A stretch of DNA of 64,000 nt from Bradyrhizobium sp. CB1015 (GTDB lineage Bacteria > Pseudomonadota > Alphaproteobacteria > Rhizobiales > Xanthobacteraceae), in assembly GCF_025200925.1 (NCBI RefSeq), contig NZ_CP104174.1, positions 6,324,001 to 6,388,000 on the forward strand. Reading direction: 5' to 3'. Made by a program: the position numbers and the translations under genes. The notes under the pieces are model-generated. The model was not told the DNA's origin. It made no database searches and worked only from the letters and a program-made list of their open reading frames with translations. Positions 32,301 to 52,403 of this stretch are shown here, one piece after another; position 1 is the first letter of the stretch; every line of letters starts with the position of its first letter.

Positions 32301-33532
32301 CAAGGCGCGCTTTGCCGATCTCAAGGAAGCGACGGATGCTTTCGTCAGGCTGTTCGATCAGGTCGTCGCAGAGCAACTGATCAGCGACGTGCCGGTCGGA
32401 CTGCTCCAGGGCGGCGGAATCGACAGTTCATTGATCGCCTATTCGCTGGCGAACCGCGACTCCTTCCTGCTCGTGACCGCCTCGTTTTCCGAGCAAAGCC
32501 ACGATGAGACAGCGATTGCCGCGATCGTCGCCGCGCAAACCTCGCTGCCGCACCGAATCGTTCCCATCAGCAGCGATCCGGATTCGGCCGCAACGCTCGC
32601 GCGCGTCGTCCACCATTTCGACGGGCAGGTGGCCGACGAGAGCGCCGGTCCCCTACTGCTCCTGACGCGCGAGCTTCGCCGCAATTCGACCGTCGCTCTG
32701 TCAGGCGACGGCGCCGACGAGTTCTTTGGCGAATATCCGACCTACCGGGCCTTGCGCCTGGCATCAGCCTTTGGCCCACTCGTTCCGGACTGGATCGCGC
32801 GATCGATCGGCCGACTCGCCTATTCCGGCCTCGGCGCCAACGAATCGAGGCTGCCCCGGGCCGCACTGCTGTCACGGTTTCTGCTCGGCCTGGCCCCTGG
32901 CGGCCCACATGCACACGCGGAATGGCGACCATATATTCCGGAGTTCCTGATTCCAGCACTCTATGGGCCCGCGTTACATCATCTCGCGCGCACCAGCCCG
33001 ACGACCGGCTATCGCCTCGCCATCGACGGTGCCGACGGATCGGACCATCTGGATCGCTGTCTGATCGCCGGCCAGACCTACCACCTGCCGAGCGGCCTTC
33101 TGATGAAGACTGACGCAATGAGCATGGCGGATGGCGTCGAGATCCGCATTCCATTCCTCGATCGGGGGATCATGGAATTTTCGGGTCAGTGCAGCCTCGA
33201 CTGATCGCGCCGCTGCGCGAACCGACCAAGCCGCTGCCGCGCGATGCCCTCCGGCGGAAGGGCGCGGATGAAGTCATCTGCAATGCCCCAAGCGCGGGTT
33301 CAACAGTCCGCTTGCCGCGCTGTTGCGTGGCGCGCTCAGGCCGCTCTGCACGGACCTCTTCGTGCGCTCACGCGAGATCTTCGAACCCTATCTCGAGCCG
33401 AACGCGGTCCGCGACCTCTGGCAGGAACACGCGGAGAGGAAGAGCAATCACGCCTATGCGCTTTGGCCCCTGCTGACGTTCGGGATCTGGCGCTCGCAAT
33501 TGAGCGGCAAGCCGATCGGCGGAGAACGCTAG
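32300..33532 (+). pseudogene. asnB pseudogene lacking the glutaminase domain, frameshifted near the 3' end
   Basis: One open stretch encodes the AsnB synthetase domain from about 'LKEATDAFVRLFDQVVAEQL' through 'LLQGGGIDSSLIAYSLANRD', 'VALSGDGADEFFGEYPTYRA' and 'GVEIRIPFLDRGIMEF', then stops. The natural tail continues in other frames: LIAPLREPTKPLPRDALRRK, then KRGFNSPLAALLRGALRPL, ending at TAG 33532. The N-terminal Cys2 glutaminase half is missing and the PP-loop Ser is Gln (LLQGGG). It pairs with the methyltransferase pseudogene on its left. Confidence 0.85.
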
Positions 33533-34188
33533 CTGCCGAAGATGTCGCGCACCACGTTGCGCGACGTCGGCGACCTCGCTGCCTTCGGATAAATGCCGTG
33601 CAAAATGCTGTCGGCGGCAAGCGCGCCGCCGTCGATCACGATAGCGCCCGTCGAGACGAAGGTGTTGTCGCCCACCGCGGTCTTGCCGATGATTCGGCTG
33701 CCACCATACATCGCGATGCCGCGGCCGAACGAGGGATAGTCGTTGTCGAGGTTCGCGCCGACCGTGCAATTGTGATAGCAAATGAAATAGTCCGAATAGC
33801 TGGCGCGCCCGAGCACGGTGCCGACCGGATGCTGGACCGCAAACACGTCGGGCAGCTCCACCTCGTAAAACGCATCGAGCGCGTGCAGCGCCTTGTTGAG
33901 CGCATAGGCCTTGTCCGCGATGGGATGGCCGGGCCGCTCGCGAAAGGCTGAATTGGCGAGATAATAAAGGAAGATCGCATACTGGTCGGAGTGCCAGTGC
34001 GAGAACCGCGCCTCGCCGTTGGCGAAAAATCCCTTCAGCCGGAAACGCGAAAAACAATGGTCGATCCGACCGAGCGCGAGATCGACGAATCTCGGGAGAT
34101 CGCCGAGGTCGGTCCCGTCAGGGAACAGGTTCTCGAACTGCTTGCGCACATAGAGGGCGAGGTCGTTGCGGGCAAGCGAGAGCTGCAC
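33529..34188 (-). CDS. Serine-acetyltransferase-like hexapeptide-repeat O-acetyltransferase (219 aa)
   Basis: A helical N-terminal half is followed by a left-handed beta-helix: 'YHNCTVGANLDNDYPSFGRG' and 'IAMYGGSRIIGKTAVGDNTF' have the hexapeptide periodicity of CysE-type transferases. It lacks a Cys-biosynthesis context. Being first after the asnB pseudogene and directly downstream of the hisF-like gene (six bases), it is the last gene of the nonulosonate operon read from 40466. It may O-acetylate the nonulosonic acid or the glycan (inference). Confidence 0.7.
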   Translation of the reverse strand: MQLSLARNDLALYVRKQFENLFPDGTDLGDLPRFVDLALGRIDHCFSRFRLKGFFANGEARFSHWHSDQYAIFLYYLANSAFRERPGHPIADKAYALNKALHALDAFYEVELPDVFAVQHPVGTVLGRASYSDYFICYHNCTVGANLDNDYPSFGRGIAMYGGSRIIGKTAVGDNTFVSTGAIVIDGGALAADSILHGIYPKAARSPTSRNVVRDIFGS

Positions 34189-34194: not shown

Positions 34195-34971
34195 CTAATT
34201 CCTGCTTGAGGAGCTGGCGCGAACGTCGAGGCCGCGCGAGAACAGGTGGCTGCGCAGCTTGATCGGGCTGTGGTCGGTGAACAGGAACATCGAGGAGATC
34301 GCCACCGCGGACGCACCGGCCTCCAGCGCGTCAATCGCATGCTGGAGCGAACCGCAGCCGCCGGAGACGATCAGCGGCACGCTCAAGACGTTCGCCGCCT
34401 TGTGAATGATATCGAGGTCGTAGCCCGACATGGTGCCGTCGCGGTCGATCGAGCCGAGCAGCACCTCGCCGCAATGCAGATCCTCGCAGCGCCGCGCCCA
34501 TTCGATCGGATCGAGCGCGACATGCTCGCGTCCGCCGTCGATGAACACACTGGCGTGGTTGGGGCTGATCTTCTTGTAGTCGATCGACACCGTCATGCAC
34601 TGATCGCCGAAGGTCCGTGCCGCCTCGCGCAGGAACTCCGGACGCCGCACGGCCTCCGAGTTCACCGACACCTTGTCGGCGCCCGCGCGCAAGAGCATGT
34701 TGACGTCGTCGAGCGTCTTGACCCCGCCGCCGACGGTGAAGGGCATGAAGATCTCTTCCGACATCCGTTCGATGATGTCGACGACGCGGCCGCGCGAGGC
34801 CGCGCTCGGCACGATGTCCAGCACGATCAGCTCGTCGACGCCGTAGTCGTTGTAGACCTTCGCCGTGGTCACCGGATTGCCGGCGGCTCGCTCGTTCTCG
34901 AAGAAGCGAACATATTTGACGAGCCTGCCGTCGCGCAGCAGGAATTTTGGGATCAGGCGCTTCTTCAACAT
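34195..34971 (-). CDS. hisF: HisF paralogue (ammonia-channel subunit) of the sugar amidotransferase system (258 aa)
   Basis: TIM-barrel related to imidazole glycerol phosphate synthase: 'MLKKRLIPKFLLRDGRLVKY', 'VGGGVKTLDDVNMLLRAGAD', 'MTVSIDYKKISP' and 'LLGSIDRDGTMSGYDLDI'. In histidine-pathway HisF the first strand is IPxLDVKDG with Asp11 as catalytic acid/base. Here that position is Leu (KFLLRDG), while the second Asp (SIDYK) remains. This fits a paralogue that only conducts ammonia from HisH to a partner enzyme, as with the HisH/HisF partners of WbpG and PseA. It is flanked by hisH and an N-acetyl-sugar amidotransferase. Confidence 0.88.
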   Translation of the reverse strand: MLKKRLIPKFLLRDGRLVKYVRFFENERAAGNPVTTAKVYNDYGVDELIVLDIVPSAASRGRVVDIIERMSEEIFMPFTVGGGVKTLDDVNMLLRAGADKVSVNSEAVRRPEFLREAARTFGDQCMTVSIDYKKISPNHASVFIDGGREHVALDPIEWARRCEDLHCGEVLLGSIDRDGTMSGYDLDIIHKAANVLSVPLIVSGGCGSLQHAIDALEAGASAVAISSMFLFTDHSPIKLRSHLFSRGLDVRASSSSRN

Positions 34972-34976: not shown

Positions 34977-35615
34977 TCAGGGATTCCAGCGCAGGAAATT
35001 GCTCATCAGCTCGATCCCGGTGTCCTGGCTCTTTTCGGGATGGAACTGCGTGGCGGCGATGTTGTCCCGCGCGATGATCGCGGTCACTGGCTGGCCGTAT
35101 TGGGCGAAGCCGACCACGTCGCCCGCATCCCTGCAGCGCATGGCGAAGGAGTGCACGAAATAGAACGCCAGATTGCTCTCGCGGACATTGGCGAGGATCG
35201 GATGGTTGCGCTCCTTGGCCACCATGTTCCAGCCCATATGCGGGATTTTCAGCGTGGGATCGTTCGGCATCAAGCGCAGGACGTCGGCATCGAACCAGCC
35301 GAGCCCGCGATGCGCCACGCCGTCGTCGGCGTGCTCCTCGGAGGTGTTGGCGAGCAGTTGCATGCCCAGGCAGACCGCGAGGAACGGCTTGCCCTTCTCG
35401 CGGACATGGCGCTCGAGCATCTCGTCGATGCCGCGGGCGCGGATGTTGCTCATGGCATCGCCGAACGCGCCGACACCGGGCAGGATGACGTGGGAGGCAT
35501 CCGCAATCGCATCCGCATCATGGGTTACGACCGGATCGAAGCCGCAATATTCGACGGCATTCTTCACCGAGCGCACATTGTTGATGCCGTAATCGACGAT
35601 CGCTACGCGTGACAT
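34977..35615 (-). CDS. hisH: HisH-type glutamine amidotransferase subunit of the sugar amidotransferase system (212 aa)
   Basis: Class I glutaminase with 'VAIVDYGINNVRSVKNAVEY', 'ILPGVGAFGDAMSN' (oxyanion strand), nucleophile Cys in 'FLAVCLGMQLLANTS', 'WFDADVLRL', 'YFVHSFAMRC' and the catalytic His/Glu in 'ATQFHPEKSQDTG'. It releases ammonia from glutamine for transfer through the adjacent HisF paralogue. Five bases separate it from hisF. No other histidine gene is near, and the downstream partner is a WbpG/PseA-like enzyme, so it should serve acetamidino-sugar formation instead of histidine synthesis. Confidence 0.9.
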   Translation of the reverse strand: MSRVAIVDYGINNVRSVKNAVEYCGFDPVVTHDADAIADASHVILPGVGAFGDAMSNIRARGIDEMLERHVREKGKPFLAVCLGMQLLANTSEEHADDGVAHRGLGWFDADVLRLMPNDPTLKIPHMGWNMVAKERNHPILANVRESNLAFYFVHSFAMRCRDAGDVVGFAQYGQPVTAIIARDNIAATQFHPEKSQDTGIELMSNFLRWNP

Positions 35616-35679: not shown

Positions 35680-36861
35680 CTATCCCTTGCCGCCGCCGAT
35701 TTCGACACCCGGATGGTTTGGCCACGGCACCTGCGTGTTGTTCCATTTGTCCATGTCCGGCATGCGGCGGCCCGGCTCGACCGTGTTCGGCGAGAACTGC
35801 CACGGACTGACCTCGTGCTTGATCGCGATGCCCAAGAACTGCTCCTCGGTGAGCTGGAGATAATCGAGGAACAGATCGAGGCTCGGCGGCCGCTTGCCGT
35901 CGAACTCGCGTACCAACGCCTCGCCCTGCTCGCGGGTCATGCGCTTGTTGCGGATGTCGATGTTGGCGAGATGGTTGGTCCGGCCCATGCCTCGTTTGAT
36001 GTATTTAAGGTAGTCACGCACGCCCTGGAAGAAGCACTCGATCTTCTCGTAATCGTATTCCGGCGGAATGCCCTCGACCTCCTGGCCCTTCCAGCCGAGC
36101 TCGCTCTTGATGATGTCGACGTGCTTCTTGGTGTCCCACTTGATGTAGCTGCCGAGACAGACCGAGCGGCACTTGATCCGCATCAGCTCCTTGCGCGGCG
36201 GATAGACGAACGGATAGAGGTCGCGCTTGGCGACGCGGCCGCCGAGGAATTCGTACATGTCATCGGCGGTAATGCCGAGATTCATGGCGCGGTTAAATCG
36301 CTTTTCGTCGACCTCTTCCATCTCGTCATAGGAATAGAACGACTGGTATTCCGCGAGACTCTCGCCCCAGATCAGGAGCGGCGTCTCGTAGCGGATCGCG
36401 ACCTGCATGGTGTGAGCATAGATGCCGGTGTGGCAGTGCCAACAGAAGTCGCCGCGGCGCTTCAGCGATTCCAGCATCAGCTCGCGCACCACGTGCCAGT
36501 TCGGCGTGAAGTTGAGGACGTCGACACCGAGCTGCTTGAACACCCTGGTGTTGTTCTCCTCGATCAGCGGCCGGTAGAACCAGTGGTCGAAGCGCACGAC
36601 TAGCGGCTTGAGGCCGAGCTTGCGCACGACGTACCAGAGCTGGAACACGCTGTCCTTGCCGCCCGAATAGGGCAAGATGCAGTCATAAAGGCCCTTGTCG
36701 CGGTATTGGCCGACCAGCTCCTGGAGCTGCTTGTAGCGGTCGTCCCAATCGATCTGGGTATCACGGACCTCGATCTGACGGCAAACGCTGCACGAACCGG
36801 ACTCGTCGAACGACGTGGCCTCCGCCGTTTCCGGCAACAAGCATTTGCTACAGCTCAACAT
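35680..36861 (-). CDS. N-acetyl sugar amidotransferase, WbpG/PseA-like (393 aa)
   Basis: ATP-PPase enzyme that converts an N-acetyl group of an activated sugar to acetamidino with ammonia from HisH/HisF. The N-terminal zinc-type pairs 'CSKCLLPET' and 'GSCSVCRQIE' are followed by the PP-loop 'ILPYSGGKDSVFQLWYVVRK', then 'FCWHCHTGIYAHTMQVA' and 'LLIWGESLAEYQSFYSYDE'. ATG 36861 was chosen since family members begin M-x-x-C-x-x-C. Known relatives are PseA (pseudaminic) and WbpG (ManNAc3NAmA). Here the pathway is legionaminic-type, so a 5-acetamidino (Am) product is likely (inference). Confidence 0.87.
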   Translation of the reverse strand: MLSCSKCLLPETAEATSFDESGSCSVCRQIEVRDTQIDWDDRYKQLQELVGQYRDKGLYDCILPYSGGKDSVFQLWYVVRKLGLKPLVVRFDHWFYRPLIEENNTRVFKQLGVDVLNFTPNWHVVRELMLESLKRRGDFCWHCHTGIYAHTMQVAIRYETPLLIWGESLAEYQSFYSYDEMEEVDEKRFNRAMNLGITADDMYEFLGGRVAKRDLYPFVYPPRKELMRIKCRSVCLGSYIKWDTKKHVDIIKSELGWKGQEVEGIPPEYDYEKIECFFQGVRDYLKYIKRGMGRTNHLANIDIRNKRMTREQGEALVREFDGKRPPSLDLFLDYLQLTEEQFLGIAIKHEVSPWQFSPNTVEPGRRMPDMDKWNNTQVPWPNHPGVEIGGGKG

Positions 36862-36898: not shown

Positions 36899-37711
36899 TT
36901 ACCACGCCGTCCACCCCCCGTCGACCGCAATGCACTGGCCCGTCACATAGGCCGACAGATCGCTCGCCAGATAGGCCACAGCACCCTTCATATCGTCCTC
37001 GCGCGCCATGCGTGCAAGCGGCGTCCGGGCCACATAGCGGCTCAAAAACGGTTCAGGCGTGGCCCTGAAGACGCCACCCGGCGCCACCGCATTGACTCGC
37101 ACCTTTGGGGCCATGGTGGTGGCCAGCCAGCGCGTCATCTGGATCAGGCCACCCTTGCTCGCGGCATAGGCGGCCGGGTTCCCGAGCGGGGTTCCCTCGT
37201 AGAGCCGCCAATCGGGCCCGGCGAGACCGTAGATCGATGAAATATTGATCACACTGCCACGGCCTGATCTGGCGAGATCCTCGGCCGCGGCCTGAATCAG
37301 GACAAATGGCGCGGTGAGGTTGACCTCGATCGCCCGCCGCCAGGTCGCATCCGACTGCTGCTCGAACGGCACCGCCCAGCCTTCCAGCCCGCTGGTGCCG
37401 ACGAAGGCTGCACAATTGACGATGATGTCGATGCCGCCAAGGGCTTCACGCACCCGCCGCGGCAGGTCCTTCACCGGTTCGCCCTGCTCGAAATCGCAGT
37501 CGAACATCGCAGCCTTAACGGAATGCATTGCCGTCAGCTTCGCGGCGGCCTCGGTGCCGGCGGACGCCGCGATGTCGACCAGCGCGATGGCAGCGCCGAG
37601 CTCGGCAAGGCCGCCCGCGATCGCGCGGCCAATATGGCCGGCGCCTCCGGTAACAACAGCGACACGGCCGTCGAGCGACATCATCTCGCGAAGCGAACGT
37701 TCGGTGCTCAT
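36899..37711 (-). CDS. SDR-family oxidoreductase, PtmA-like (270 aa)
   Basis: Classical short-chain dehydrogenase: 'GRVAVVTGGAGHIGRAIAGG' (TGxxxGxG), 'DIIVNCAAF' (NAG-type), 'SVINISSIYGLAG' (catalytic Ser), 'YAASKGGLIQMTRWLA' (Tyr-x3-Lys) and 'YVTGQCIAVDGGWTAW'. Its ATGA overlap with the nucleotidyltransferase gene places it in the nonulosonate operon. Campylobacter and related legionaminic loci carry an SDR (PtmA) beside the nucleotidyltransferase; its exact step is not settled, so the reaction is left open. Confidence 0.83.
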   Translation of the reverse strand: MSTERSLREMMSLDGRVAVVTGGAGHIGRAIAGGLAELGAAIALVDIAASAGTEAAAKLTAMHSVKAAMFDCDFEQGEPVKDLPRRVREALGGIDIIVNCAAFVGTSGLEGWAVPFEQQSDATWRRAIEVNLTAPFVLIQAAAEDLARSGRGSVINISSIYGLAGPDWRLYEGTPLGNPAAYAASKGGLIQMTRWLATTMAPKVRVNAVAPGGVFRATPEPFLSRYVARTPLARMAREDDMKGAVAYLASDLSAYVTGQCIAVDGGWTAW

Positions 37712-38748
37712 CCAAAGATCCTCTGGAATTCGTCGGACGCACGCTGAAGATCGTCGAGGCGGCCGACGTCAATCCAGTATTCTCGCAACGGGAATCCGAC
37801 CGACGGCTTGCCCTCGGCGATGGTGCGCTCGATCAGCGTCGGCATGTCCACAGCTTCGTTGGCGTCGAGATGATCGAGCACACCGGGATCGAGCAGGTAG
37901 ACGCCGGCATTGACGAAGAACTTCTGCGTCGGCTTCTCGCGAATGCCGAGCAGGCGATGGTCGTCGAAGTCGATCACGCCGAACGGCACAGTCACCGAAT
38001 GCTCGCGCACGCAGACGGTGGAGAAGGCCTGATGCTCGCGATGATACTTCAGCATCTGCTCGAAATTCACCGTGGTCAGCAGGTCGCCGTTCATGACGAA
38101 GAACGGCTGCCTCGGCCGCTCCGGCAATAGCGACAGCGCACCGGCGGTGCCGAGCCGCGCGTTCTCCTGGAGATAGTTGATCTCGACGCCCCAGGCCGAG
38201 CCGTCACCGAAATAGTCCTGGATCATCTCGGCCTTGTAGTTGACCGAGATGAAGAACTTGCCGAAGCCGGCCTTCACGAAGCCGCCGAGCACGGTCTCCA
38301 GGATCGGCTTGTCGCCAACGCGGATCAGCGGCTTGGGGATGTCGTCGGTCAGCGGCTTCAGCCGCGAGCCGAGGCCGCCGGCCATCAGCACGACCCAATG
38401 ATCGGATTGCTGCGCGAGCGCGAGGTCGTCGATCAGCTTGACTTCGACCACCCGCCCCTCCGCATCGACGAGCGGAAGCTGGTGGATCGAATGCTTGCGC
38501 ATCAGGTTGAGCGCGGCCGGATTCGAGATGCCGACCGGCGCCGTAATCGGCGTGCGGTTCATCACGAGGTTGACGGAGGCGTCGAGGCCGACGCCGCCGA
38601 GCAGCGCGCGCCGCACGTCGCCGTCGGTGACGGTTCCGACGATCCTGCCCTCGCGCTCGACGATCGCTAGTTGCAGATTGCCCTGATCGATGCGCCGTAG
38701 CGTCTCGATCAGCGGCGTATCTTCATTGACAACGAAGGCACCCTTCAT
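37708..38748 (-). CDS. ptmE: CBS-domain sugar nucleotidyltransferase, PtmE-like (346 aa)
   Basis: The N-terminal 115 residues form two CBS motifs ('RIVGTVTDGDVRRALLGGVG', 'MRKHSIHQLPLVDAEGRVVE'). The nucleotidyltransferase domain follows: 'VVLMAGGLGSRLKPLTDDIP' (G-x-G-x-R-hexose pyrophosphorylase signature), 'KPLIRVGDKPILE', 'PFFVMNGDLLTTVNFEQML' and 'EYWIDVGRLDDLQRA'. PtmE of the Campylobacter legionaminic pathway has this CBS-NTP_transferase order and makes GDP-glucosamine, committing the pathway to GDP- instead of UDP-sugars. Substrate choice here is inferred from family and context. Confidence 0.85.
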   Translation of the reverse strand: MKGAFVVNEDTPLIETLRRIDQGNLQLAIVEREGRIVGTVTDGDVRRALLGGVGLDASVNLVMNRTPITAPVGISNPAALNLMRKHSIHQLPLVDAEGRVVEVKLIDDLALAQQSDHWVVLMAGGLGSRLKPLTDDIPKPLIRVGDKPILETVLGGFVKAGFGKFFISVNYKAEMIQDYFGDGSAWGVEINYLQENARLGTAGALSLLPERPRQPFFVMNGDLLTTVNFEQMLKYHREHQAFSTVCVREHSVTVPFGVIDFDDHRLLGIREKPTQKFFVNAGVYLLDPGVLDHLDANEAVDMPTLIERTIAEGKPSVGFPLREYWIDVGRLDDLQRASDEFQRIFG

Positions 38749-38760: not shown

Positions 38761-39387
38761 CTACTCGTTGCCGGCGAACCCGCCGGCCGCGACATCCCTT
38801 GTAACCACCGCCCCTGCGGCAACGACGGCTCCGGCGCCCACTTTGACACCGACCAACACCACGGCGCCGGCGCCGACATGGACGCTCTCGCCGATCGAAA
38901 CTCCCCCGCACAGCACGGCCCCCGGCGCGACATGCGCGTGATCGCCGACGATACAGTCGTGCTCGACCACCGCGCGCGTATTCACCAGCACGTTCCGCCC
39001 GATCCGCGCCGCGGGCTGAATCACGGCACCGGCCATCACCTGCGCGCCATCATCCAGTTGCGCATCAGAGGCAATTACGGCGGACGCATGCGCGATCACC
39101 GGAAATTTGTAACCCAGCGCAGTGAACCGCTCGAACAGCACGCGCCGGCCCGCCAGCCCCGAATCGGTGCGCGTTGCGCGGTTGCCAAGACCGTTGGCGA
39201 GCTCGACCTCATCGGCGGCCATGTTCATGATGTCGTCGTCGGATCCCGTGATCTTGACGGCGCCGATGGCCTCGCCGACGCGCGCAGCGTCGCGGTCGGT
39301 GACACCAACGGGACGAATGCCACGGCTTAGCAACGCCTCGATGACGACGCGGGCGTGACCGCCGGCGCAAAGCACGATCAGGCTCAT
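38761..39387 (-). CDS. NeuD/PglD/LegH-type hexapeptide sugar acetyltransferase (208 aa)
   Basis: The N-terminal Rossmann-like subdomain 'SLIVLCAGGHARVVIEALLS' is typical of NeuD/PglD. The C-terminal left-handed beta-helix includes 'AVVEHDCIVGDHAHVAPGAV', whose His is the usual base, and repeated V-G-A-G-A turns. It should acetylate the 4-amino group of the nucleotide-linked 2-acetamido-4-amino sugar (LegH step) or O-acetylate the nonulosonate (NeuD step). No other N-acetyltransferase lies in the operon, favouring LegH. ATG 39387 overlaps the stop of legI (ATGA). Confidence 0.82.
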   Translation of the reverse strand: MSLIVLCAGGHARVVIEALLSRGIRPVGVTDRDAARVGEAIGAVKITGSDDDIMNMAADEVELANGLGNRATRTDSGLAGRRVLFERFTALGYKFPVIAHASAVIASDAQLDDGAQVMAGAVIQPAARIGRNVLVNTRAVVEHDCIVGDHAHVAPGAVLCGGVSIGESVHVGAGAVVLVGVKVGAGAVVAAGAVVTRDVAAGGFAGNE

Positions 39388-42586: not shown

Positions 42587-42676
42587 CTGCCCGCGATTAT
42601 TGCCTGTGCAGCACCCCAGGCTGTATAGATCGGCGCGAGCTTGCGACGAACCGCGCTCGTTCCGGGAGAACGCGAC

Positions 42677-43852: not shown

Positions 43853-44647
43853 TTACGCGCCGCGCAGCTTGCTCGGACGTTTGAGGTATTCGGCGAGTTG
43901 ATCGGGGCTGAAATAGGCCGCTTGGCTGCGCAGCGGACTGTCCTTGCGGATGAAGGCGAGATCGATCTGGGCAAGCGCGCCGTCGAGCGAGCGCATGTGC
44001 CCCTCCAGCACGTCATAGACCGCAAAACCGGCCTCGTCGCAAAAGCGCACGATGTCGGCGAACTGCGGGATGCCGTGCCTCATCGGCATCATCGTGGTCT
44101 CGAGGATCATGAGATCGATTTCGCCGATTCGCGCGCCGAGCCCCTTGAGCACCTCGATCTCGGCACCCTGCGTATCGACCTTCAGGAACACCGGATGCTC
44201 CAGCGTCTCCGGCAACAGCGAGTCGAGCCGCCGCATCGGCGTCTTGCGCGCCTCGCCGTCGAGCGCCTTGCCCTCGACCTGCGCAAAAATGCTGGAGCCC
44301 GAGATGTCGTCGTGGACGTTGAACGTGATCTCGCCATTCTCGGCGCCGGCCGCGACCAGGAAATACTCGGCGTCGAGCCGCTGCTTGAGCTGCTCCAGGA
44401 TCGGACGGCATTCCGCCACCGGCTCGATCAGGAAATATTTGGCACGAGGAAACGCGTCGTAGATCGGCGACGTGCCGAAGGCGATGCCGACGTCGACCAC
44501 CGTCTTCACATCGAAGCCGAGCGACTTCAGATGCTTGAAGAACAGGCCGAAATTCCTGACCGGCGCGTTGGCGCGCATCAGGCGCAAACCGATCGGTTCC
44601 AGAATGTTGTTGATGGCCTGAAACGCGGCAGAGACGAATGCCTTCAT
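43853..44647 (-). CDS. FkbM-family methyltransferase (264 aa)
   Basis: SAM-dependent O-methyltransferase of the FkbM type: 'VKTVVDVGIAFGTSPIYDAF' (motif I), 'YFLIEPVAECRPILEQLKQR' (acidic ribose binding), 'SGSSIFAQVEG', 'VFLKVDTQGAEIEVLKGLGA' (the family's KxDTQGxE motif) and 'IDLMILETTMMPMRHGIPQF'. FkbM enzymes methylate sugar hydroxyls in many surface glycans. It is convergent with the dioxygenase gene (21 bases apart) and divergent from the epimerase gene. Confidence 0.9.
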   Translation of the reverse strand: MKAFVSAAFQAINNILEPIGLRLMRANAPVRNFGLFFKHLKSLGFDVKTVVDVGIAFGTSPIYDAFPRAKYFLIEPVAECRPILEQLKQRLDAEYFLVAAGAENGEITFNVHDDISGSSIFAQVEGKALDGEARKTPMRRLDSLLPETLEHPVFLKVDTQGAEIEVLKGLGARIGEIDLMILETTMMPMRHGIPQFADIVRFCDEAGFAVYDVLEGHMRSLDGALAQIDLAFIRKDSPLRSQAAYFSPDQLAEYLKRPSKLRGA

Positions 44648-44812
44648 GAAGCGAACGCCGGTTGGGCTAGAGCCGAGGTGAAGGATCGCGACCGCAAAAT
44701 GCCTCTACACACGATGGATTTGTCAGAGTTTGCAATCGACTGGTCGGTTTGGTAGATCAGCCCGGCAAGCCGGTCAAGCGGCCATCCCGTCGGCAAAGAC
44801 AGCGACATCAGC

Positions 44813-45772
44813 ATGAAAGTTCTCGTGACCGGAAGCTCCGGCTTCATCGGCCAGGCACTGGTGCGGCGGTTGCGCGCCGAACATTGCGACGTCGTGGGGC
44901 TCGACAAGGTTCCGGCCGAGACGACCGACATCGTGTGCGACATTCTCGATGCCAACGGCCTGACGAAGGCCGTGGCCGGCACCGCGCCGGACGCGGTGGT
45001 TCATCTCGCCGCACGCATCGATCTCGACGAAAAGACCGACCTTTCCGGTTACACCGCCAATATCGAGGGCGTCGCAAATCTGGTCGAGGCCGTGCGGCGC
45101 ACGCCGTCCGTGCGGCGAGCGATCTGGACCTCGTCGCAGCTCGTCTGCCGCATCGGCTATGTGCCGGCGAACGACACCGACTATAAGGCCGACACGTTGT
45201 ACGGACAGAGCAAGGTGCGCACCGAGGAGATCGTCCGCAGCGCCGATGGCGCCGGGCGCGAATGGTGCCTGGCGCGCCCCACGACCGTCTGGGGCCCCGG
45301 CATGAGCGCGCATTACCAGCGCTTCCTGCACATGATAGAGCGCGGCCATTACTTCCACGTCGGGCACGGCCCGCTCTGGAAGTCCTACAGCTACATCGAG
45401 AACATCGCCTTCCAGTATTGGCGTCTCCTGAGCGTCCCGACGGACCAGATCCATCGCCGGACGTTCTATCTCGCCGACTACACGCCGATCGATCTCATCG
45501 CGTGGTGCGACGCGTTTCAGAGCTACTTCGGTTCGCGCCCGATCCCGCATCTGCCGGCCGGCGTCGCCCGCACGCTGGCGCTCTGCGGCGACGCGGTGAA
45601 CGCGATCGGCTTGAAACGATTTCCCTTCAATTCGTTCCGCCTCAACAACGTGCTTACGCAGTATCAATTCGATCTCGCGCCGACCGCGGCGGTCTGCGGC
45701 CCGCTCCCCTGCGATATGCAGCAAGGTGTCGCGGCGACAGTCGCGTGGCTGCGAAACCTCTCGGCGCGCTGA
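44813..45772 (+). CDS. NAD-dependent epimerase/dehydratase family protein (319 aa)
   Basis: Extended SDR: 'MKVLVTGSSGFIGQALVRRL' (GxxGFIG), 'VVHLAARIDLDEKTDLSGYT', 'IWTSSQLVCRIGYVPAND' (catalytic Ser region), 'YGQSKVRTEEI' (Tyr-x3-Lys) and 'RPTTVWGPGMSAHYQRFLHM'. Probably makes or modifies a nucleotide sugar of the locus; the substrate loop does not match the well-known 4,6-dehydratases. It ends one base before the convergent Wzy-like gene. Confidence 0.82.
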   Translation: MKVLVTGSSGFIGQALVRRLRAEHCDVVGLDKVPAETTDIVCDILDANGLTKAVAGTAPDAVVHLAARIDLDEKTDLSGYTANIEGVANLVEAVRRTPSVRRAIWTSSQLVCRIGYVPANDTDYKADTLYGQSKVRTEEIVRSADGAGREWCLARPTTVWGPGMSAHYQRFLHMIERGHYFHVGHGPLWKSYSYIENIAFQYWRLLSVPTDQIHRRTFYLADYTPIDLIAWCDAFQSYFGSRPIPHLPAGVARTLALCGDAVNAIGLKRFPFNSFRLNNVLTQYQFDLAPTAAVCGPLPCDMQQGVAATVAWLRNLSAR

Positions 45773-45773
45773 A

Positions 45774-47339
45774 TTAGGTCGCGAGGGTGTTGACCCCGAG
45801 CTTGCCGGCGTCCTGCGGCGCCCGCGCGCGCAGATTGGCCAAATCAAGCACCAGCCCGGTCGCCAGCATCGACGCCAACACCAGCGCCGAATTTGCCATG
45901 CCGAGAGGTCCCTGAACCGGGCTGAGAAGGACGCTGGCGAGCACGAACACGAGCAGCAGCAGCGGCGTCATCAGGCCGGAATGCCGGCTTCCGGCCGCGC
46001 TCCAGCCGGCCAGGCCGCCCCAGATCGCGACGTAGACGATGGCGCCGACGAGGCCGAAATCGATGAAGGCCGCGGCCCAGGCGCTCGGGAAGAAGCCATA
46101 GATCAGCGCCTCCCGCTGCTCCGCCTCCATGACCGCCACTTGATCGCTAGCCGGGAAAAATATCCGCAACAACGGCGATAGCACACCGACCTCGTACACG
46201 CCCCATTGCGGCGTGAACTTGTCGCGGGCGTTCCAGACGTGATCAACCGTCCGCACACCATGGGTCAGATAGAAATAGGTGCTGAGGCCGATCATCGCGC
46301 TGCGCGACGAAAGGTAGCCGGAGTCGATCGCCGAGATGACATAGCCACGGGGTTGGACGTTCCAGGCCTCCAGCACCGCATCAAGAGCGGTGGCTATCGA
46401 ATTCGACTTCTGGGGCAGCCGCGGCGCGGCCTGTGCTTCGGCGAGCCGTTTGTCAAGCTCGGCCGGAGTGATCATCTCGGTCGCCTTTGGCCGGCGGGTT
46501 TGATTCGCTCGGGCTCGGTTCTCGGCCCGAGACGTCAGACGTTCGTTCTTCCCCTCCTGCAATTCGGCGATCAGAGGCGACATTTGGATGCAGAAATTCT
46601 GTCTGCTGGTCCAGATCGCGCTGGAATAGACCGCAAACAGGCCCACCGCGATGGCGGTCTTGAGCACGAGATAATGGCCACGCGGCACGAGGGTTCGCCC
46701 CTGCGTGACGCGCACCAGCATCGCCATCGCAACCAGGACGAGAACGAACAGGATCGGCATCCGCCCCGAATAGAGCAGCGCATAGCCGACCGGCGAGACG
46801 ATGGACAGTTGTGCCAGCGCAGCCGCCCATCCCCTGATTTCTTCGCCTTTCAGCAGAAACAGCACGATGGAGACGAATCCGAAGGAGAACATCGCGTAGC
46901 CGCCATAGAGCAGCGGCGTTCGCCGTATCATCACAGAATCAACCAACTGAGGCGCGCAACGCAGCAACTCGGAATAGGCACTATTGTTCACCCCACTCAG
47001 CACCGTACGATCGAAGGCCACCAGCGCGATTCCGGCGATCCCGAGCAACGACGCGGCCATGACCACCCTATCCAGCACCCGTGCGGAAAAGTGTGACGAT
47101 TTTGCCCATTGCTCGGACCAGCGATCAAAGGACAGCTTACCTACGTGATAAGAGAGCAGAAAGATTGCGAGCGCGATCACAACCACCGAGAGCACAACGG
47201 CAGACGGTTGCCCTGGATAAATGATTGGCCCGCCGGCAACCAAGAGAAGAGTAGTGGCCCAGATCACAACCATGAGAATCGCGGGGGACGCGAGGCCGCT
47301 GAGCAACGGATTGAGCCGCTGTTGCGTGTTGCCGTTCAA
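45774..47339 (-). CDS. wzy: Wzy-like O-antigen polymerase / oligosaccharide repeat unit polymerase candidate (521 aa)
   Basis: About ten to twelve membrane helices with one large hydrophilic central loop of about 120 residues ('QEGKNERLTSRAENRARANQ' onwards), the topology expected for Wzy. Wzy sequences are highly divergent, so topology and position next to a Wzx-like flippase gene (58 bases) are the main evidence. It would polymerise flipped repeats on the periplasmic face. A second O-antigen-ligase-type protein lies at 60234-61598, so the division between Wzy and ligase is not settled. Confidence 0.65.
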   Translation of the reverse strand: MNGNTQQRLNPLLSGLASPAILMVVIWATTLLLVAGGPIIYPGQPSAVVLSVVVIALAIFLLSYHVGKLSFDRWSEQWAKSSHFSARVLDRVVMAASLLGIAGIALVAFDRTVLSGVNNSAYSELLRCAPQLVDSVMIRRTPLLYGGYAMFSFGFVSIVLFLLKGEEIRGWAAALAQLSIVSPVGYALLYSGRMPILFVLVLVAMAMLVRVTQGRTLVPRGHYLVLKTAIAVGLFAVYSSAIWTSRQNFCIQMSPLIAELQEGKNERLTSRAENRARANQTRRPKATEMITPAELDKRLAEAQAAPRLPQKSNSIATALDAVLEAWNVQPRGYVISAIDSGYLSSRSAMIGLSTYFYLTHGVRTVDHVWNARDKFTPQWGVYEVGVLSPLLRIFFPASDQVAVMEAEQREALIYGFFPSAWAAAFIDFGLVGAIVYVAIWGGLAGWSAAGSRHSGLMTPLLLLVFVLASVLLSPVQGPLGMANSALVLASMLATGLVLDLANLRARAPQDAGKLGVNTLAT

Positions 47340-47397: not shown

Positions 47398-48771
47398 TCA
47401 CGGGTAGAGCATATCCGGGTCGCTGGGAAGGCCGACAGGCTGAGTTCCGCCAGGTTCCCTAAGGCTTTCCCGCATCCTGTGGCTCGCGAAGCCCACCAGG
47501 GACAGGAAAAGCGCGGCGCTGGCAATCCCGCCGGCGAGGGCCGCCCCGTAGATGCCGAACCCAGGGACCAGCGCCACGTTCAATACCGTCGCCACCGTGG
47601 CCGAACCGAGATTGCAGATCAGGAGATATTTGTCCGACCGGGCCGCGTAGAGCGCGTAGGACGGCACATCCGCCAGCATGCGCAGGAACACGCCCGGCAG
47701 CATGGCATAGAACACGCCGATGCTCGCCGCATAGGTGGACAGCCCGAGCAACGCCAGCATGGGCGCCATGGCAAAGGCGGACAGGATCATCGTCGCGCAG
47801 ACCAGCGCCAGCATCGACCAGAAGAAGGAGCGCAGCGCCGTGCGATAGGCATCCAGACCCGCGCCATAGCCCGCGATGACTTTTGGCAGGAACTGATGCG
47901 ATACCGAGCTGCCCAGCGACAACAGACCGATCAGGATCGTCGAATAGAACGTATAGATGCCGAGCGCGTCACGCCCGACGAACGCGTCGATGACGAAGCG
48001 GTCAACATAGGAAATCACCAATGCTCCCGCCGCCGTCAGCATGAACGGACGCGCGGTCCAAAGTCCCTCGCGGATGTTCTTGAGATCCGGCCGGTATCCC
48101 CTGAGTTCGCGCCAGGGCAGCTCGGAGAGCGAGAACGCGGAAAAGACGATCGATGCCACGCCGCCGAGCGCCCACCAGACCAGCACGGTCTCCAGCGTCC
48201 GCGTCGACGGCGCCGCGAACATCAGCAGCGCGATCGCGTACACCCAGATTCCGCCGCGCAGGAACACGCCGATGTAGGCGCGCACTGGCCGCCAGGTGAT
48301 GATCAGGATCCGCGTCGCTTCCAACGAGACATGCTCGGTGACGAGGATCAGGATAAACCACGGTGCAAGACGCGCCGGAAAGGAACCGGCGGCGATCGCA
48401 CCGGCCACGATGATGCCGACAGCCACCAGCGCCGCCACGCCAAGCACCATCTGGTCCGCAATGATGCGCGCGCGCCGCTCGGGCGTCGCCGGCACCAATT
48501 CGCGCAAGGTATAGGAATAGAACTCCAGACCGACCGCGAGCAGCGCGAAAGCCAGCGCCGCGGTCAACAGGCCGTATTGTCCCATCTCGGCCGGTGATAG
48601 CATGCGCGCCAGAAGGAGCGACAGCAGGAAGCGGCTCGCAAGCGTCAGCGCACGCAGCACCAGCGCCGCGACCGTACCGGCGACCGCCGGGCGCGTCACG
48701 AGGTCAAGCAGACGCATCGCGCTCTTCCATCTCCGCCGGCCGTCGACATCGGTTGCAGGCGCGCTCTCCAC
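47398..48771 (-). CDS. wzx: Wzx-like lipopolysaccharide flippase, MATE/MOP superfamily (457 aa)
   Basis: Twelve to fourteen membrane helices without a long loop. The N-terminal 'AALVLRALTLASRFLLSLLL' and 'MLSPAEMGQYGLLTAALAFA' are typical of the Polysacc_synt family (the L-x-P-x-x-x-G-x-Y/x-G-L motif at the end of helix 1), and 'RFVIDAFVGRDALGIYTFYS' is typical of its middle. It should move the undecaprenyl-linked repeat unit across the inner membrane. It is followed by the Wzy-like gene and preceded, seven bases away, by the KpsS-like transferase gene. Confidence 0.85.
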   Translation of the reverse strand: MESAPATDVDGRRRWKSAMRLLDLVTRPAVAGTVAALVLRALTLASRFLLSLLLARMLSPAEMGQYGLLTAALAFALLAVGLEFYSYTLRELVPATPERRARIIADQMVLGVAALVAVGIIVAGAIAAGSFPARLAPWFILILVTEHVSLEATRILIITWRPVRAYIGVFLRGGIWVYAIALLMFAAPSTRTLETVLVWWALGGVASIVFSAFSLSELPWRELRGYRPDLKNIREGLWTARPFMLTAAGALVISYVDRFVIDAFVGRDALGIYTFYSTILIGLLSLGSSVSHQFLPKVIAGYGAGLDAYRTALRSFFWSMLALVCATMILSAFAMAPMLALLGLSTYAASIGVFYAMLPGVFLRMLADVPSYALYAARSDKYLLICNLGSATVATVLNVALVPGFGIYGAALAGGIASAALFLSLVGFASHRMRESLREPGGTQPVGLPSDPDMLYP

Positions 48772-48778: not shown

Positions 48779-50167
48779 TCAGGCCGCGGTTCTGCAGGAC
48801 TTCAGGAATTTCGGCAGGTGCGCGTTCAGCGAACGCACCAGCGGCTCGACCGCGGCGCGCACGGCCTCGTTCTCGGGATCGAACTTGCGCCAGCCGAAAT
48901 AGTCGCCCTCGACGCTGATCGACGCCAGGTGCCGCATGATTGCGCGGCGGGTCGTATCGAGACTATCGGGGGATTGCCAACGCGCCAGCCGCTCGGCGAG
49001 GCCGTCGAGCTCATCGGTGTCGCGAACGTGCAGGAAGTGCTGCTGGGTCGCGTAGTACGGCTCGGTCGCGACCGAGCACAGCCCGGCCAGCGCGGCCTGG
49101 AAACCGATGGTGCCCGTGAACGTCACCGACACCGCGCACTTCCCGATCAGCAGATTCGCCGGCACGTCATAGGGCACCAGCACCACGGACGGCAGCTTCG
49201 CCAGACGTTCGAACAGCTCGCGCTGGCGAAAACCGAACTGCAGCGGATGATCCTTGACGAAGATGCGGTAGCCGGCGCGGCCGAGCACCTCGCAATAGCG
49301 CACCACCACGTCGTCATGCGCGAGCATGCCCTGCGGCCCCAGCCAATAGTCCATCGAGGCCTCGGGGAAGAGCTGAAGCCCGAGGAAAACCCGCCGCTCC
49401 CGCGGCACGTCAGCAAGCCGCTTGTCCCAGTCGTGATCGAGCAGGCCGAGCACGGCCACGTCGCGCATGCGCACCTTGTGCTTGAGCCGCTTCAGCGCGT
49501 CGAGATAATGGCAGTTGTAACGGTCGCGCTTGAGGAACCGCCAGACGTTGAAGAAGGCGCCACGTAGCGCGTAGTAGCCAAAAATCCGCCAGAATTTTGC
49601 CAGCGAGAACCGCTTGGCATCGCGGACATAGGCCGGCGCAAAATCTTCCCTGCAGAGCTGGCCGACCGCCGCGTCGATATCCTCCGTTGAGGGCTCGCGC
49701 AGCAAGACCGGCTTTCCGCGGCGCATGAGCATCACCTGGTCCGGAATGATCGAGGTCGTCATCTCCAGGAAGTCGATGCCGCGCCGCCGTGCAACGCGCT
49801 CCATCACGTCCATGACATAGCGGTCGATAGTGAAGGTCATGACGAGGGCGGGGCCAAGCTTGTCAAAGGCCTGCTCGATCGCCTGCGTCATGCCGCCGAT
49901 CATTTTGAGCGCGAGATCGCGATCGACGCTCCTGAGCACGCGGCAGCGCAGGATGATGTCGGCGCATCCGTCCGCGCCGAACCGGTCAAGCGCCGCGGCC
50001 GCGGCATCGTCCCGGTCGGCGAAGCGATAGAAATCGTCGACCAGCGAATAGTCGCCGTCGTCTCGCAGGTCACTGAGCACGACCGCGTCGGCGAACTCAA
50101 TGCGCGAGGCCAGGTATTTCCACCAGGCCGTCGTGCTGTGAATGGTGAAGAAGACGATCCGGGGCAT
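48779..50167 (-). CDS. KpsS/Capsule_synth-like transferase, candidate nonulosonate transferase (462 aa)
   Basis: Starts 'MPRIVFFTIHSTTAWWKYLA', with its ATG overlapping the legC stop (ATGA). The C-terminal half resembles capsule-synthesis GT-B proteins: 'IFVKDHPLQFGFRQRELFER' (K-x-HP motif), 'VVLVPYDVPANLLIGKCAVS' and 'TFTGTIGFQAALAG', where relatives have N-S-T-x-x-x-E-A. Members of this broad group transfer Kdo or related 3-deoxy-ulosonic acids from CMP donors. Translational coupling to legC makes it the best candidate for the legionaminyltransferase, though homology is loose. Confidence 0.6.
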   Translation of the reverse strand: MPRIVFFTIHSTTAWWKYLASRIEFADAVVLSDLRDDGDYSLVDDFYRFADRDDAAAAALDRFGADGCADIILRCRVLRSVDRDLALKMIGGMTQAIEQAFDKLGPALVMTFTIDRYVMDVMERVARRRGIDFLEMTTSIIPDQVMLMRRGKPVLLREPSTEDIDAAVGQLCREDFAPAYVRDAKRFSLAKFWRIFGYYALRGAFFNVWRFLKRDRYNCHYLDALKRLKHKVRMRDVAVLGLLDHDWDKRLADVPRERRVFLGLQLFPEASMDYWLGPQGMLAHDDVVVRYCEVLGRAGYRIFVKDHPLQFGFRQRELFERLAKLPSVVLVPYDVPANLLIGKCAVSVTFTGTIGFQAALAGLCSVATEPYYATQQHFLHVRDTDELDGLAERLARWQSPDSLDTTRRAIMRHLASISVEGDYFGWRKFDPENEAVRAAVEPLVRSLNAHLPKFLKSCRTAA

Positions 50168-51408
50168 CAGCTCTGGTTCGCGCCTTCTTGGGTGGCTCCG
50201 GCCAGGAAGGGACTGCTCGGCAGGTTGATGCAGCGCGTGTTCATGTCCTCGGCGACGGGAAGCGCTGCACGCGGGCAGGCGCGGTACATCGGCAAGAGAT
50301 GCATCGGCGTCCACAGCGGGCGGGCGCGAATGCCGTGGCCATGCAGGGCTTCGAGCAGACGGTCGCGTTCCAAAGCGTATTCGCGGTCGAGCACCAGCGT
50401 GTTGAGCCAATAATTGCTCTCAGAACCCTTCGGCTCGCGATAGATGCGCGCGCAGGGGAAATCGCTGAACGCATCGAGATAGCGCTCGGCGAGCACGCGC
50501 TTGGCCGCGACCATTTTGGCCAGCCGCTCCATCTGCGCGCAGCCCAGTGCCGCGTTTATGTTGGGCAGGCGGTAGTTGTAGGCGACCGCGTCGTGCTCGA
50601 ATGCCCAGGCATGCGCCTTCTTGGCCGTCGAGGTAAAATGCCGGGCGTGGCGGGCATGCGCCTCGTCGTCGGTCACGATCATGCCGCCGCCGCCTGTGGT
50701 GACGATCTTGTTGCCGTTGAAGCTCAGGACCGCGGAATGGCCGAAGGTGCCGCAGCCCTTCCCGTTCAGGGTCGAGCCGAGCGACTCGGTCGCATCCTCC
50801 ACGATCACGAGACCGTAGCGGGCGGCGACTGCGCCGAGCGCGGTCATGTCGACGGGATGCCCGAAGATGTGCACGGGAACGACGGCCCGGAGGCGGCGGC
50901 CGGTGTGTTTGTTCACCCAGGCGCCGTTCTGCCGCACGGCGATGGCGTCGAGATGCGCCTCGAGCGCGCGCGGGTCGAGCCCAAGCGTATCCCAGGTTGA
51001 ATCGACGAAATGCGGCACGGCGCCGGCATGGCTCACCGCGTTGGCGGTCGCGACGAAGGTGATCGAGGGCAACAGCACCTCGTCGTTGGGCTCGACACCT
51101 TCGAGCACCAATGCCGCGTGCAGGGCGGCGGTGCCGTTGACGATCGCAACCGCGTGGCGCGAGCCGGTTGCGGCCGCCACCATCTCTTCGAAGCGGGTGA
51201 CGTATTTGCCGGCCGACGACACCCAGTTGGTGTCGATGCAGTCGAGCACCAGCTCGCGCTCACGATTCCCGAAACGCGGTTCGTGCAGCTCGACCGGACG
51301 CTGCGCCGTCCCGAGCACGGCATCGACCGCGTCGAGTAGCGGCTTGAAGTCAAGCACGGCGGAACGGTTCTGGCTCGCTTGCGCGGAGGACATGCTCATC
51401 TTGCTCAC
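50167..51408 (-). CDS. legC: LegC-family DegT/DnrJ/EryC1 aminotransferase (413 aa)
   Basis: PLP-dependent 4-aminotransferase of nucleotide sugars: 'NGTAALHAALVLEGVEPNDE', 'LLPSITFVATANAVSHAGAV', 'VVPVHIFGHPVDMTALGAVA', 'VIVEDATESLGSTLNGKGCG' (PLP Asp) and 'AVLSFNGNKIVTTGGGGMIV' with the internal aldimine Lys. The N-terminal extension before 'FGNRERELVLDCIDTNWVSS' is typical for LegC. Overlaps legB upstream (ATGA-type) and the KpsS-like gene downstream. It should aminate the 4-keto product of LegB. Confidence 0.93.
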   Translation of the reverse strand: MSKMSMSSAQASQNRSAVLDFKPLLDAVDAVLGTAQRPVELHEPRFGNRERELVLDCIDTNWVSSAGKYVTRFEEMVAAATGSRHAVAIVNGTAALHAALVLEGVEPNDEVLLPSITFVATANAVSHAGAVPHFVDSTWDTLGLDPRALEAHLDAIAVRQNGAWVNKHTGRRLRAVVPVHIFGHPVDMTALGAVAARYGLVIVEDATESLGSTLNGKGCGTFGHSAVLSFNGNKIVTTGGGGMIVTDDEAHARHARHFTSTAKKAHAWAFEHDAVAYNYRLPNINAALGCAQMERLAKMVAAKRVLAERYLDAFSDFPCARIYREPKGSESNYWLNTLVLDREYALERDRLLEALHGHGIRARPLWTPMHLLPMYRACPRAALPVAEDMNTRCINLPSSPFLAGATQEGANQS

Positions 51409-52403
51409 AACGTATAGGCATTGACGCGATAGCAGGCCAGGTTCTCCTTTTTGGTGAACCAGGCGATGGTTTGTTCGAGCCCCTTGCGCAGGCCGTCCAC
51501 GCCGCCGAAGCGCGGCGACCAGCCGAGCAGCTTTTGCGCCTTGGCGTTGGACGCCCAGAGACGCTCGACCTCGCTGCGCTCGGGGCGCACGCGAACGTCG
51601 TCATGCTCGATCTCGATTTCCGCTTCCATCAGCTCGGCGATCAGCCGCGCGGTGTCGCCGATCGAGATCTCGAAGGCGCTGCCGATGTTGATGACCTCGC
51701 CTACGCCGGCCTTGGAATCGAGCGCCACCAGGAAGCCGCCGACGGTATCGGCGACATAGTTGAAGTCGCGCGTCGGATGGATGCTGCCGAGCTTGATCTT
51801 GCGCGCGCCGGCCGCGATCTGGGTGATGATGGTAGGGATCACCGCGCGGGCCGATTGCCGCGGGCCGTAGGTGTTGAACGGACGTACCACCGTCACCGGC
51901 GTGCCGAACGAGCGCTCGAACGACAGCGCGAGCTGATCGGCGCCGATCTTGGTCGCGGAATAAGGCGACTGGCCCTGCAGCGGGTGCTCCTCGGTGATCG
52001 GAACGAATTGCGCGGTGCCGTAGACCTCGCTAGTCGAGGTGTGGATCACCTTCTCGACGCCGAGATCGCGCGCCGCCTGCAGCACGTTGAGCGTGCCGCG
52101 GATGTTGGCTTCGACATAGGTGTCGGGCGAGTGATAGGAGTAGGGAATCGCGATCAACGCGGCGAGATGCAGGACGGCGTCGCACCCCTTCATCGCGGTG
52201 CGCACGCCGTTGGGGTCGCACACATTGCCGGCGAAGACGTCGAATTCCTTGCGGATGTCGGGCGGCGAGGAATCGAGCCAGCCGTGCGAGCCCATGCTGT
52301 TGTAGTGCACGAAGGCGCGCACCGCGACATTGCGCCGGACCAGCTCTTCCGCAAGGTGCGATCCGATGAAGCCGCCCGCCCCCGTCAAAAGTACTTTTCG
52401 CAA
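51405..52403 (-). CDS. legB: LegB-type NAD-dependent sugar 4,6-dehydratase (332 aa)
   Basis: Extended SDR: 'KVLLTGAGGFIGSHLAEELV', 'VRAFVHYNSMGSHGWLDSSP' (a LegB-specific substrate loop), 'VIHTSTSEVYGTAQFVPITE', 'YSATKIGADQLALSFE' (Tyr-x3-Lys), 'RPFNTYGPRQSARAVIPTII' and 'THPTRDFNYVADTVGG'-like 'HPTRDFNYVAD'. TTG 52403 was chosen: AGGGGA lies nine bases ahead and the protein then starts at the usual RKVLLTG. It forms the 4-keto-6-deoxy nucleotide sugar and heads the legB-legC-transferase-wzx-wzy operon. Confidence 0.93.
   Translation of the reverse strand: MRKVLLTGAGGFIGSHLAEELVRRNVAVRAFVHYNSMGSHGWLDSSPPDIRKEFDVFAGNVCDPNGVRTAMKGCDAVLHLAALIAIPYSYHSPDTYVEANIRGTLNVLQAARDLGVEKVIHTSTSEVYGTAQFVPITEEHPLQGQSPYSATKIGADQLALSFERSFGTPVTVVRPFNTYGPRQSARAVIPTIITQIAAGARKIKLGSIHPTRDFNYVADTVGGFLVALDSKAGVGEVINIGSAFEISIGDTARLIAELMEAEIEIEHDDVRVRPERSEVERLWASNAKAQKLLGWSPRFGGVDGLRKGLEQTIAWFTKKENLACYRVNAYTL

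Follow-up and report, generated by a model that had tools for sequence, protein, structure and literature searches.

Legionaminic acid is a rare acidic sugar with nine carbons that occurs on bacterial surfaces. Campylobacter makes its cytidine monophosphate (CMP)-activated legionaminic acid by a route with the steps PtmE, LegB, LegC, LegH, LegG, LegI and LegF. Part of this list of steps for legionaminic acid (Leg) is given in PMC4481668 (this and the other papers named here by PMC number are drawn on for part of their text), and acetamidino nonulosonates are described from a fish pathogen, Aliivibrio salmonicida, as well as from Legionella and Campylobacter (PMC3766260; PMC7371886), with an acetamidino 8-epi-Leg in A. 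salmonicida (PMC7371886) and, in Legionella pneumophila serogroup 1, an O-antigen that is a homopolymer of 5-acetamidino-7-acetamido-8-O-acetyl Leg (PMC3766260). For Bradyrhizobium, a literature search at title and abstract level, with subscription papers outside its scope, found no report of a nonulosonate, and the one mention in PMC4823718 is a reference. Here we describe a 64,000-nucleotide stretch of the Bradyrhizobium sp. CB1015 chromosome (positions 6324001-6388000 of a single contig of 8,412,734 bases; hereafter the window, in whose numbering coordinates are given) in which LegB, LegC, a NeuD/LegH-type acetyltransferase, LegG, LegI, LegF, PtmE-like and PtmA-like proteins and a WbuX/HisH/HisF trio are all encoded within 33.5-52.4 kb. 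On the evidence of its genes we consider it probable that the product of this cassette is a legionaminic-type acid, CMP-activated and bearing an acetamidino substituent, and that it serves as donor in the Wzx/Wzy-dependent assembly of a Bradyrhizobium surface polysaccharide.

All genes named in an initial annotation of this DNA are present, most by family scores over curated cut-offs. LegB, an NAD-dependent 4,6-dehydratase (51405-52403, minus strand, with the start near 52403 inferred from the profile start), scored 500.6 bits against TIGR04180 (cut-off 475), and LegC, a pyridoxal phosphate-dependent aminotransferase of the DegT family (PF01041; 50167-51408, minus), 517.1 bits against TIGR04181 (cut-off 420). 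The NeuD/LegH-type acetyltransferase (38761-39387, minus) reached 196 bits with TIGR03570 (cut-off 160.8), the hydrolysing 2-epimerase LegG of the NeuC family (41393-42586, plus) 431.2 bits with TIGR03568 (cut-off 235.9) and the nonulosonate synthase LegI (39384-40466, minus), product of the only NeuB gene in the whole genome, 460.7 bits with TIGR03569 (cut-off 399.65), LegI remaining below the cut-off of the PseI model TIGR03586 (233.8 bits, cut-off 340.25). LegF, the CMP-nonulosonate cytidylyltransferase (40650-41396, plus), was recognised by PF02348 (55.1 bits, cut-off 22.6), its best Protein Data Bank (PDB) match being the CMP-Neu5Ac synthetase 6ifd (126 bits). The PtmE-like CBS-nucleotidyltransferase (37708-38748, minus) contains PF00571 in two stretches together with PF00483 (NTP_transferase, 149.4 bits), and the PtmA-like short-chain dehydrogenase (36899-37711, minus) matches PF13561 at 163.8 bits. 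The initial annotation had arranged these genes in two operons around Wzx/Wzy-like genes; there are instead three transcription units, because LegF and LegG run on the plus strand, divergent from LegI. LegB-LegC-glycosyltransferase-Wzx-Wzy and LegI-NeuD-PtmE-PtmA-WbuX-HisH-HisF-LbH form the minus-strand units and LegF-LegG-PhyH-like the plus-strand unit, with LegI and LegF diverging from the intergenic region at 40467-40649 and 4-base overlaps at LegB/LegC, LegI/NeuD and PtmE/PtmA.

The active site of LegI speaks to the kind of acid that would be formed. In nonulosonate synthases a Gly marks the Leg/Neu type and a Phe the pseudaminate (Pse) type (PMC7371886); LegI of the window has the motifs KVGSGD and HCTTEYP, and the Pse signature ASF, found as KIASFE in the Pse-type NeuB of two compared loci (L139 and L140) where the window protein has GSG, is not present in it. 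HCTTEYP recurs in all 80 LegI-related loci, 65 of them outside the Bradyrhizobium type; among these 65, LegC was present in 56 and LegG in 61, and the pattern used for the first motif (GSG) gave no match in 58. Position 184, printed as Tyr for Leg enzymes in PMC7371886, aligns with a Thr in the window LegI, at odds with that source. The nearest relatives of the window LegI are from Bradyrhizobium. In the LegI tree the Bradyrhizobium-type clade groups with the canonical Leg set, and the best solved relative of LegG is the GDP/UDP-diacetylbacillosamine 2-epimerase 5zlr (324 bits, vs 156 bits for the bifunctional GlcNAc 2-epimerase/kinase 4zht); the LegI tree, which omits four loci with a LegI match whose translated stretch contained stops or was too short, does not alone exclude the sialate branch because it contained no named sialate synthase.

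The amidation trio lies downstream of the PtmA-like gene. It consists of a WbuX-type N-acetyl sugar amidotransferase (35680-36861, minus; TIGR03573 402.4 bits, cut-off 203.2), a second HisH glutaminase (34977-35615, minus; TIGR01855 224.8 bits, cut-off 105.4) and a second HisF, a WbuZ-like ammonia channel (34195-34971, minus); a separate hisH/hisF pair lies elsewhere in the genome, at 424-426 kb. A Cys and a His-Pro-Glu are catalytic in HisH, as is an Asp in HisF. The window HisH, 44% identical to the his-operon HisH, retains its Cys and His-Pro-Glu, and Asp11 of true HisF is a Leu in the window HisF, which reads IPKFLLRDG vs IPCLDVKDG of the genome's other HisF; the IPKFLLRDG string occurs in 15/15 related loci. 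The N-acetyl sugar amidotransferase family is defined by a tetracysteine and an SGGxDS PP-loop (PMC10607449), and the window WbuX and its near relatives retain the zinc tetracysteine (CxxC...GxCxxC) and the PP-loop SGGKDS. With the WbuX motifs kept and HisF without its Asp, the trio, as judged from these residues, is consistent with conversion of an N-acetyl to an acetamidino group.

Other phyla have Leg clusters in which a WbuX-HisF-HisH set is adjacent to LegF (e.g. L080, L087, L111 and L129). The product had been compared with the Legionella O-antigen sugar; the comparison holds for the kind of sugar and does not extend to the enzyme, since the window WbuX aligns with the solved Legionella WbuX-type enzyme 8wex at only 107 bits. 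This window-type clade (support 0.991) includes WbuX of Syntrophomonas (L075, 72% identical), L146 (62%) and L139, L140 and L147 (57-59%), in a tree that omits 13 loci with a WbuX match whose translated stretch contained stops or was too short, among them L058 and L068, whose WbuX is 86-87% identical to that of the window. Fourteen Leg loci among the LegI relatives have WbuX of other types, 25-31% identical to the window protein. By its sequence the window WbuX belongs to a subfamily only distantly related to the Legionella enzyme, and its clade does not include the WbuX found in most other Leg clusters. Of 398 genomes spread over the phylum, 3 have a match at E 1e-100, its own genome among them.

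Of 15 related loci (L056-L070), 13 come from named Bradyrhizobium, one bears the label Frankia sp. RB7 and one is from an unclassified metagenome-assembled genome; the order LegG-LegF-LegI-PtmE-PtmA-WbuX-HisH is kept in all of them, so that an assembly by chance is not plausible; NeuD gave no match in L068 at the threshold used, and the sequence of L066 ends after HisH. Among 146 Bradyrhizobium genomes a NeuB-model match was found in 64 (44 above cut-off), LegB above cut-off in 41 and WbuX above cut-off in 22. In each of the 11 genomes whose WbuX reaches 400 bits, LegI lies about 2.5 kb and LegB 14.6-17.4 kb from WbuX, both over cut-off and both on its contig within 20 kb. LegB also passes its cut-off in 30 further genomes, 29 of them without a WbuX match and one (G847) with two lower-scoring WbuX. 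The flanking genes are less constant: matches to Wzx and the Wzy-like protein in L155/L156 are only 33-36% identical, with the glycosyltransferase (77%), LegC (84%) and LegB (87%) retained. We also observed that the WbuX-HisH gap of L058 (at 13.5-17.3 kb) is about 2.5 kb larger than in other Bradyrhizobium-type loci, perhaps through an insertion, and that the spacing in L068 is wider too; that L066, the locus labelled Frankia sp. RB7, encodes a LegI 91% identical to that of this Bradyrhizobium and is probably wrongly labelled; and that in 41 of the 146 genomes an open frame 644-829 aa long has a NeuB-family match below cut-off.

Candidate genes for assembly share a unit with LegB and LegC. The Wzx-like flippase (47398-48771, minus) passes PF01943 at 29.0 bits (cut-off 28.2), and the adjacent open reading frame (ORF; 45774-47339, minus), without a Pfam or NCBIfam family match, is a candidate Wzy-like polymerase from its hydrophobic sequence and position. 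Between the Wzx-like gene and LegC lies an unclassified glycosyltransferase with a predicted KpsC/WbbB-like fold (48779-50167, minus), whose model has as its best structural matches transferases that use CMP-activated 3-deoxy-D-manno-oct-2-ulosonic acid (Kdo), at low root-mean-square deviation (rmsd) and 11-16% identity. The fold claim rests on the model because the sequence profile found in the PDB only KpsC at E 0.79-0.91, alongside antibody chains. Foldseek alone put UDP-GlcNAc 2-epimerases at the top of its list (TM by query 0.23-0.28), with KpsC 6mgb ranked 27th (0.35). PF05159 has no match in the window protein, and among the 120 homologues listed, of 576 found, a single one carries it (P0172, 77% identical); 24 of the 120 were used in the structure alignment. 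Staying with LegB and LegC and modelling like CMP-Kdo transferases, this glycosyltransferase is a candidate transferase of the CMP-nonulosonate.

A complete CMP-legionaminate-type pathway tied to a polysaccharide locus, as originally claimed, together with a module for N-acetyl to acetamidino conversion, is supported by hidden Markov model scores, active-site signatures and gene linkage. Genes, families, motifs and linkage are read from the DNA, and the steps proposed here are inferred from the known chemistry of the families. PtmE would supply a GDP-GlcNAc-type precursor, from which LegB, LegC and NeuD/LegH would form a diacetamido-trideoxy sugar nucleotide; LegG would hydrolyse and epimerise this compound, LegI would condense the product with phosphoenolpyruvate and LegF would convert the acid to its CMP form. 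HisH would free ammonia from glutamine and HisF channel it to WbuX, which, using ATP, would change one N-acetyl to a positively charged acetamidino group, before or after CMP activation, and the KpsC-like glycosyltransferase would place the acid onto the repeat unit.

Several results weigh against this proposal. The window HisF falls marginally below the cut-off of its nearest model, TIGR03572 WbuZ (293.4 vs 299.7 bits; it is also below cut-off for hisF, at 244.1), and LegF is below the cut-off of its NCBIfam match, PseF (108.3 vs 205.7 bits). The PtmA-like dehydrogenase is over no NCBIfam cut-off among the 25 matches listed, and the name PtmA therefore reflects gene context. The glycosyltransferase has no Pfam match and received no name from NCBIfam, and in the structural comparison UDP-GlcNAc 2-epimerases come within Z 1 of the Kdo transferases, a tie, but with an rmsd of 7.7-10.8. 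LbH and a class III aminotransferase, considered below, have no assigned pathway step. Lastly, two Bradyrhizobium genomes (G020 and G029) have WbuX over cut-off, of another type (24-27% identical), and no NeuB match, so that in this genus a WbuX does not generally imply a nonulosonate.

It is highly improbable that the pathway yields sialic or pseudaminic acid instead: NCBIfam gives LegI and LegG sialate names and the best NCBIfam model for LegF is that of PseF, below cut-off, but LegB and LegC, which are not required for Neu5Ac, pass their own cut-offs, LegG is closer to 5zlr than to 4zht and LegI lacks the Pse signature. That the amidine is on a different sugar is unlikely; here the nonulosonate would be plain Leg5Ac7Ac, and the trio would amidinate a different N-acetyl sugar in the polysaccharide that contains it, as in the pairs WbuX/FucNAc and WbpG/ManNAc3NAcA. 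Known family members do act on FucNAc and for ManNAc3NAmA (PMC10607449), and two loci of the same genus (L143 and L144) have WbuX-HisH-HisF without LegI in 20 kb, in genomes without a NeuB match; however, in the 15/15 related loci the trio and LegI share one strand and a conserved order, LegF or Pse genes accompany window-clade WbuX in L075, L139, L140 and L146, and the window ORFs scanned, a part of all ORFs, included no conspicuous FnlA- or WbpB-type gene. Leg is carried on flagellin in Campylobacter and Plesiomonas (PMC4481668), and the sugar here might be attached to flagellin, or to some other protein, instead of to a polysaccharide; we regard this as very unlikely, given that the cassette stands amid Wzx, a Wzy-like gene, glycosyltransferases and an O-antigen-ligase-like gene (60234-61598) and that the matches for the ORFs scanned included no flagellin or Maf family.

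A further reading is a donor more elaborate than the predicted CMP-Leg5Am7Ac, which may not be the end product because LbH, the class III aminotransferase and the PtmA-like dehydrogenase fit no clear step. The aminotransferase, GSA-aminomutase-like and a conserved neighbour (30400-31713, plus; PF00202 151 bits), and LbH, a CysE/EpsC-like acyltransferase (33529-34188, minus; NF041874 37.6 bits, cut-off 150, and no Pfam match at E 0.001), accompany the cassette, and given both, the product may be amidinated more than once. That oxidation by PtmA, amination by the aminotransferase and acylation by LbH add or move a nitrogen or acyl group beside the amidine is conceivable, if doubtful. The aminotransferase is present in 12 of the 15 related loci (L066 and L068 end too early, and B. 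ivorense L060 gave no match) and near window-clade WbuX in 5/5 readable lineages (Bradyrhizobium, L075, L139, L140 and L146; the sixth, L147, ends at a contig edge) vs 1/14 loci with other types, where p 0.0005 is descriptive only because the lineages were chosen after their contexts had been seen and the comparison loci were found differently. Across 50 long-flank loci, PtmA occurs in 19 and, within about 1.1 kb, in 7/7 of those bearing the aminotransferase (p 0.0005, uncorrected for relatedness), and LbH is near WbuX in Bradyrhizobium, L075, L088 and L146. In L139, whose pseudaminate-type cluster has PseG and PseC above cut-off next to HisF, HisH and a window-clade WbuX, a cytidylyltransferase and a class III aminotransferase form one protein (L139:3828-5867), and such fusions were found in 9/10 long aminotransferase ORFs scanned (L139 and L163-L170, the scan covering 8 of 13 matches with open frames of at least 640 aa plus L139 and L140); their recurrence suggests that aminotransferases of this sort work on the same ulosonate. 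Legionella serogroups 6 and 12 have a published cluster with similar neighbour genes, in which PseG, GSA-aminomutase, cytidylyltransferase, acetyltransferase, HisF and HisH are consecutive (PMC3694923).

The window aminotransferase, however, scores 267.1 bits against PRK06209 (NF004856), well under the cut-off of 486, and belongs only distantly to that family, being 28-30% identical to those of L075 and L146, which pass; the 747-aa ORF of L140 has the aminotransferase domain only. Aminotransferases of the PRK06209 kind also occur near WbuX of other clades, and of 26 such matches in 289 genomes of the class, 7 have a WbuX within 10 kb, 12 have one within 30 kb and 9 are in WbuX-less genomes. 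PtmA is needed in Plesiomonas too, where a ptmA mutant is without flagella, and the cluster table in the part of PMC4481668 drawn on here contains no such aminotransferase. We would advance only tentatively the wider proposition that the locus makes an undescribed nonulosonate, legionaminic-type and acetamidino with an extra nitrogen or acyl group from PtmA, the aminotransferase and LbH near CMP activation, used by a new KpsC-fold family of CMP-nonulosonate transferases.

Several further genes lie in or around the cassette. A PhyH-like dioxygenase candidate (42641-43831, plus) stays below the PF05721 cut-off (20.4 vs 22 bits), and there are an FkbM-type methyltransferase (43853-44647, minus; TIGR01444 70.1 bits, cut-off 37.7) and an NAD-dependent sugar epimerase/dehydratase (44813-45772, plus; PF01370 98.1 bits). 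Several gene starts were set downstream of the longest ORF from profile and relative starts, and minus-strand ORFs at 42548-43768, 40698-41357 and 44774-45847 were dropped as overlapping better-supported plus-strand genes. The cassette is embedded in a polysaccharide region; upstream, this region encodes a GDP-mannose-dehydratase-like protein, a sugar epimerase, a pyruvyl transferase and glycosyltransferases, and the O-antigen-ligase-like gene lies downstream. Between the aminotransferase and LbH, an asparagine-synthase domain without the glutaminase part (32125-33204, plus) looks like a remnant, and 53463-56081 (minus) encodes a serralysin-like metalloprotease with a tryptophan-rich C-terminal domain in three stretches. 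An ERF-type recombination protein, a serine recombinase and a piece of an IS66-type transposase lie near both window ends (2618-6412 and 62289-63401), which suggests mobility.

If the proposed legionaminic-type donor is indeed made, soil and root-nodule bacteria would bear a charged acetamidino nonulosonate on their surfaces, where the chemistry of lipopolysaccharide (LPS) and exopolysaccharide matters for plant recognition and phages, and they would offer hosts both safe and cultivable for settling the amidine position and the Leg-transferring enzyme. As a pathway this is a further case of a known kind; anything new could lie in the glycosyltransferase and the flanking aminotransferase and acyltransferase. 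Compared with the retaining beta-Kdo transferases KpsC, WbbB and KrkA, the window glycosyltransferase is only 11-16% identical and has no Pfam match. Bradyrhizobium Leg loci of the L149 type share LegB, LegC, LegG, LegI, PtmE and LegF with the window, but the genome has no WbuX, LegB and LegI are 3.4 kb apart start to start and a second NeuB is present; in L149 itself this protein (4309-6216, plus), the one examined among the long open frames with a NeuB-family match below cut-off, joins NeuB and SAF to a xylose-isomerase-like TIM barrel, beside the canonical Leg cluster. Syntrophomonas wolfei (L075) has, like the window, LegB, LegC, LegG, LegI, LegF, WbuX, LbH, a class III aminotransferase and PtmA, and differs in that the flanks examined gave no HisH/HisF match and that its aminotransferase is over the PRK06209 cut-off. 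Legionella serogroup 1 likewise combines a Leg pathway with an N-acetyl sugar amidotransferase in an LPS locus, with wzm/wzt where the window has Wzx/Wzy (PMC3766260). The Campylobacter CMP-legionaminate pathway resembles that of the window in having one gene per step, a PtmE-like CBS-nucleotidyltransferase and a PtmA-like short-chain dehydrogenase, whereas the window places these genes in a polysaccharide locus with Wzx/Wzy, in a genus of plant symbionts.

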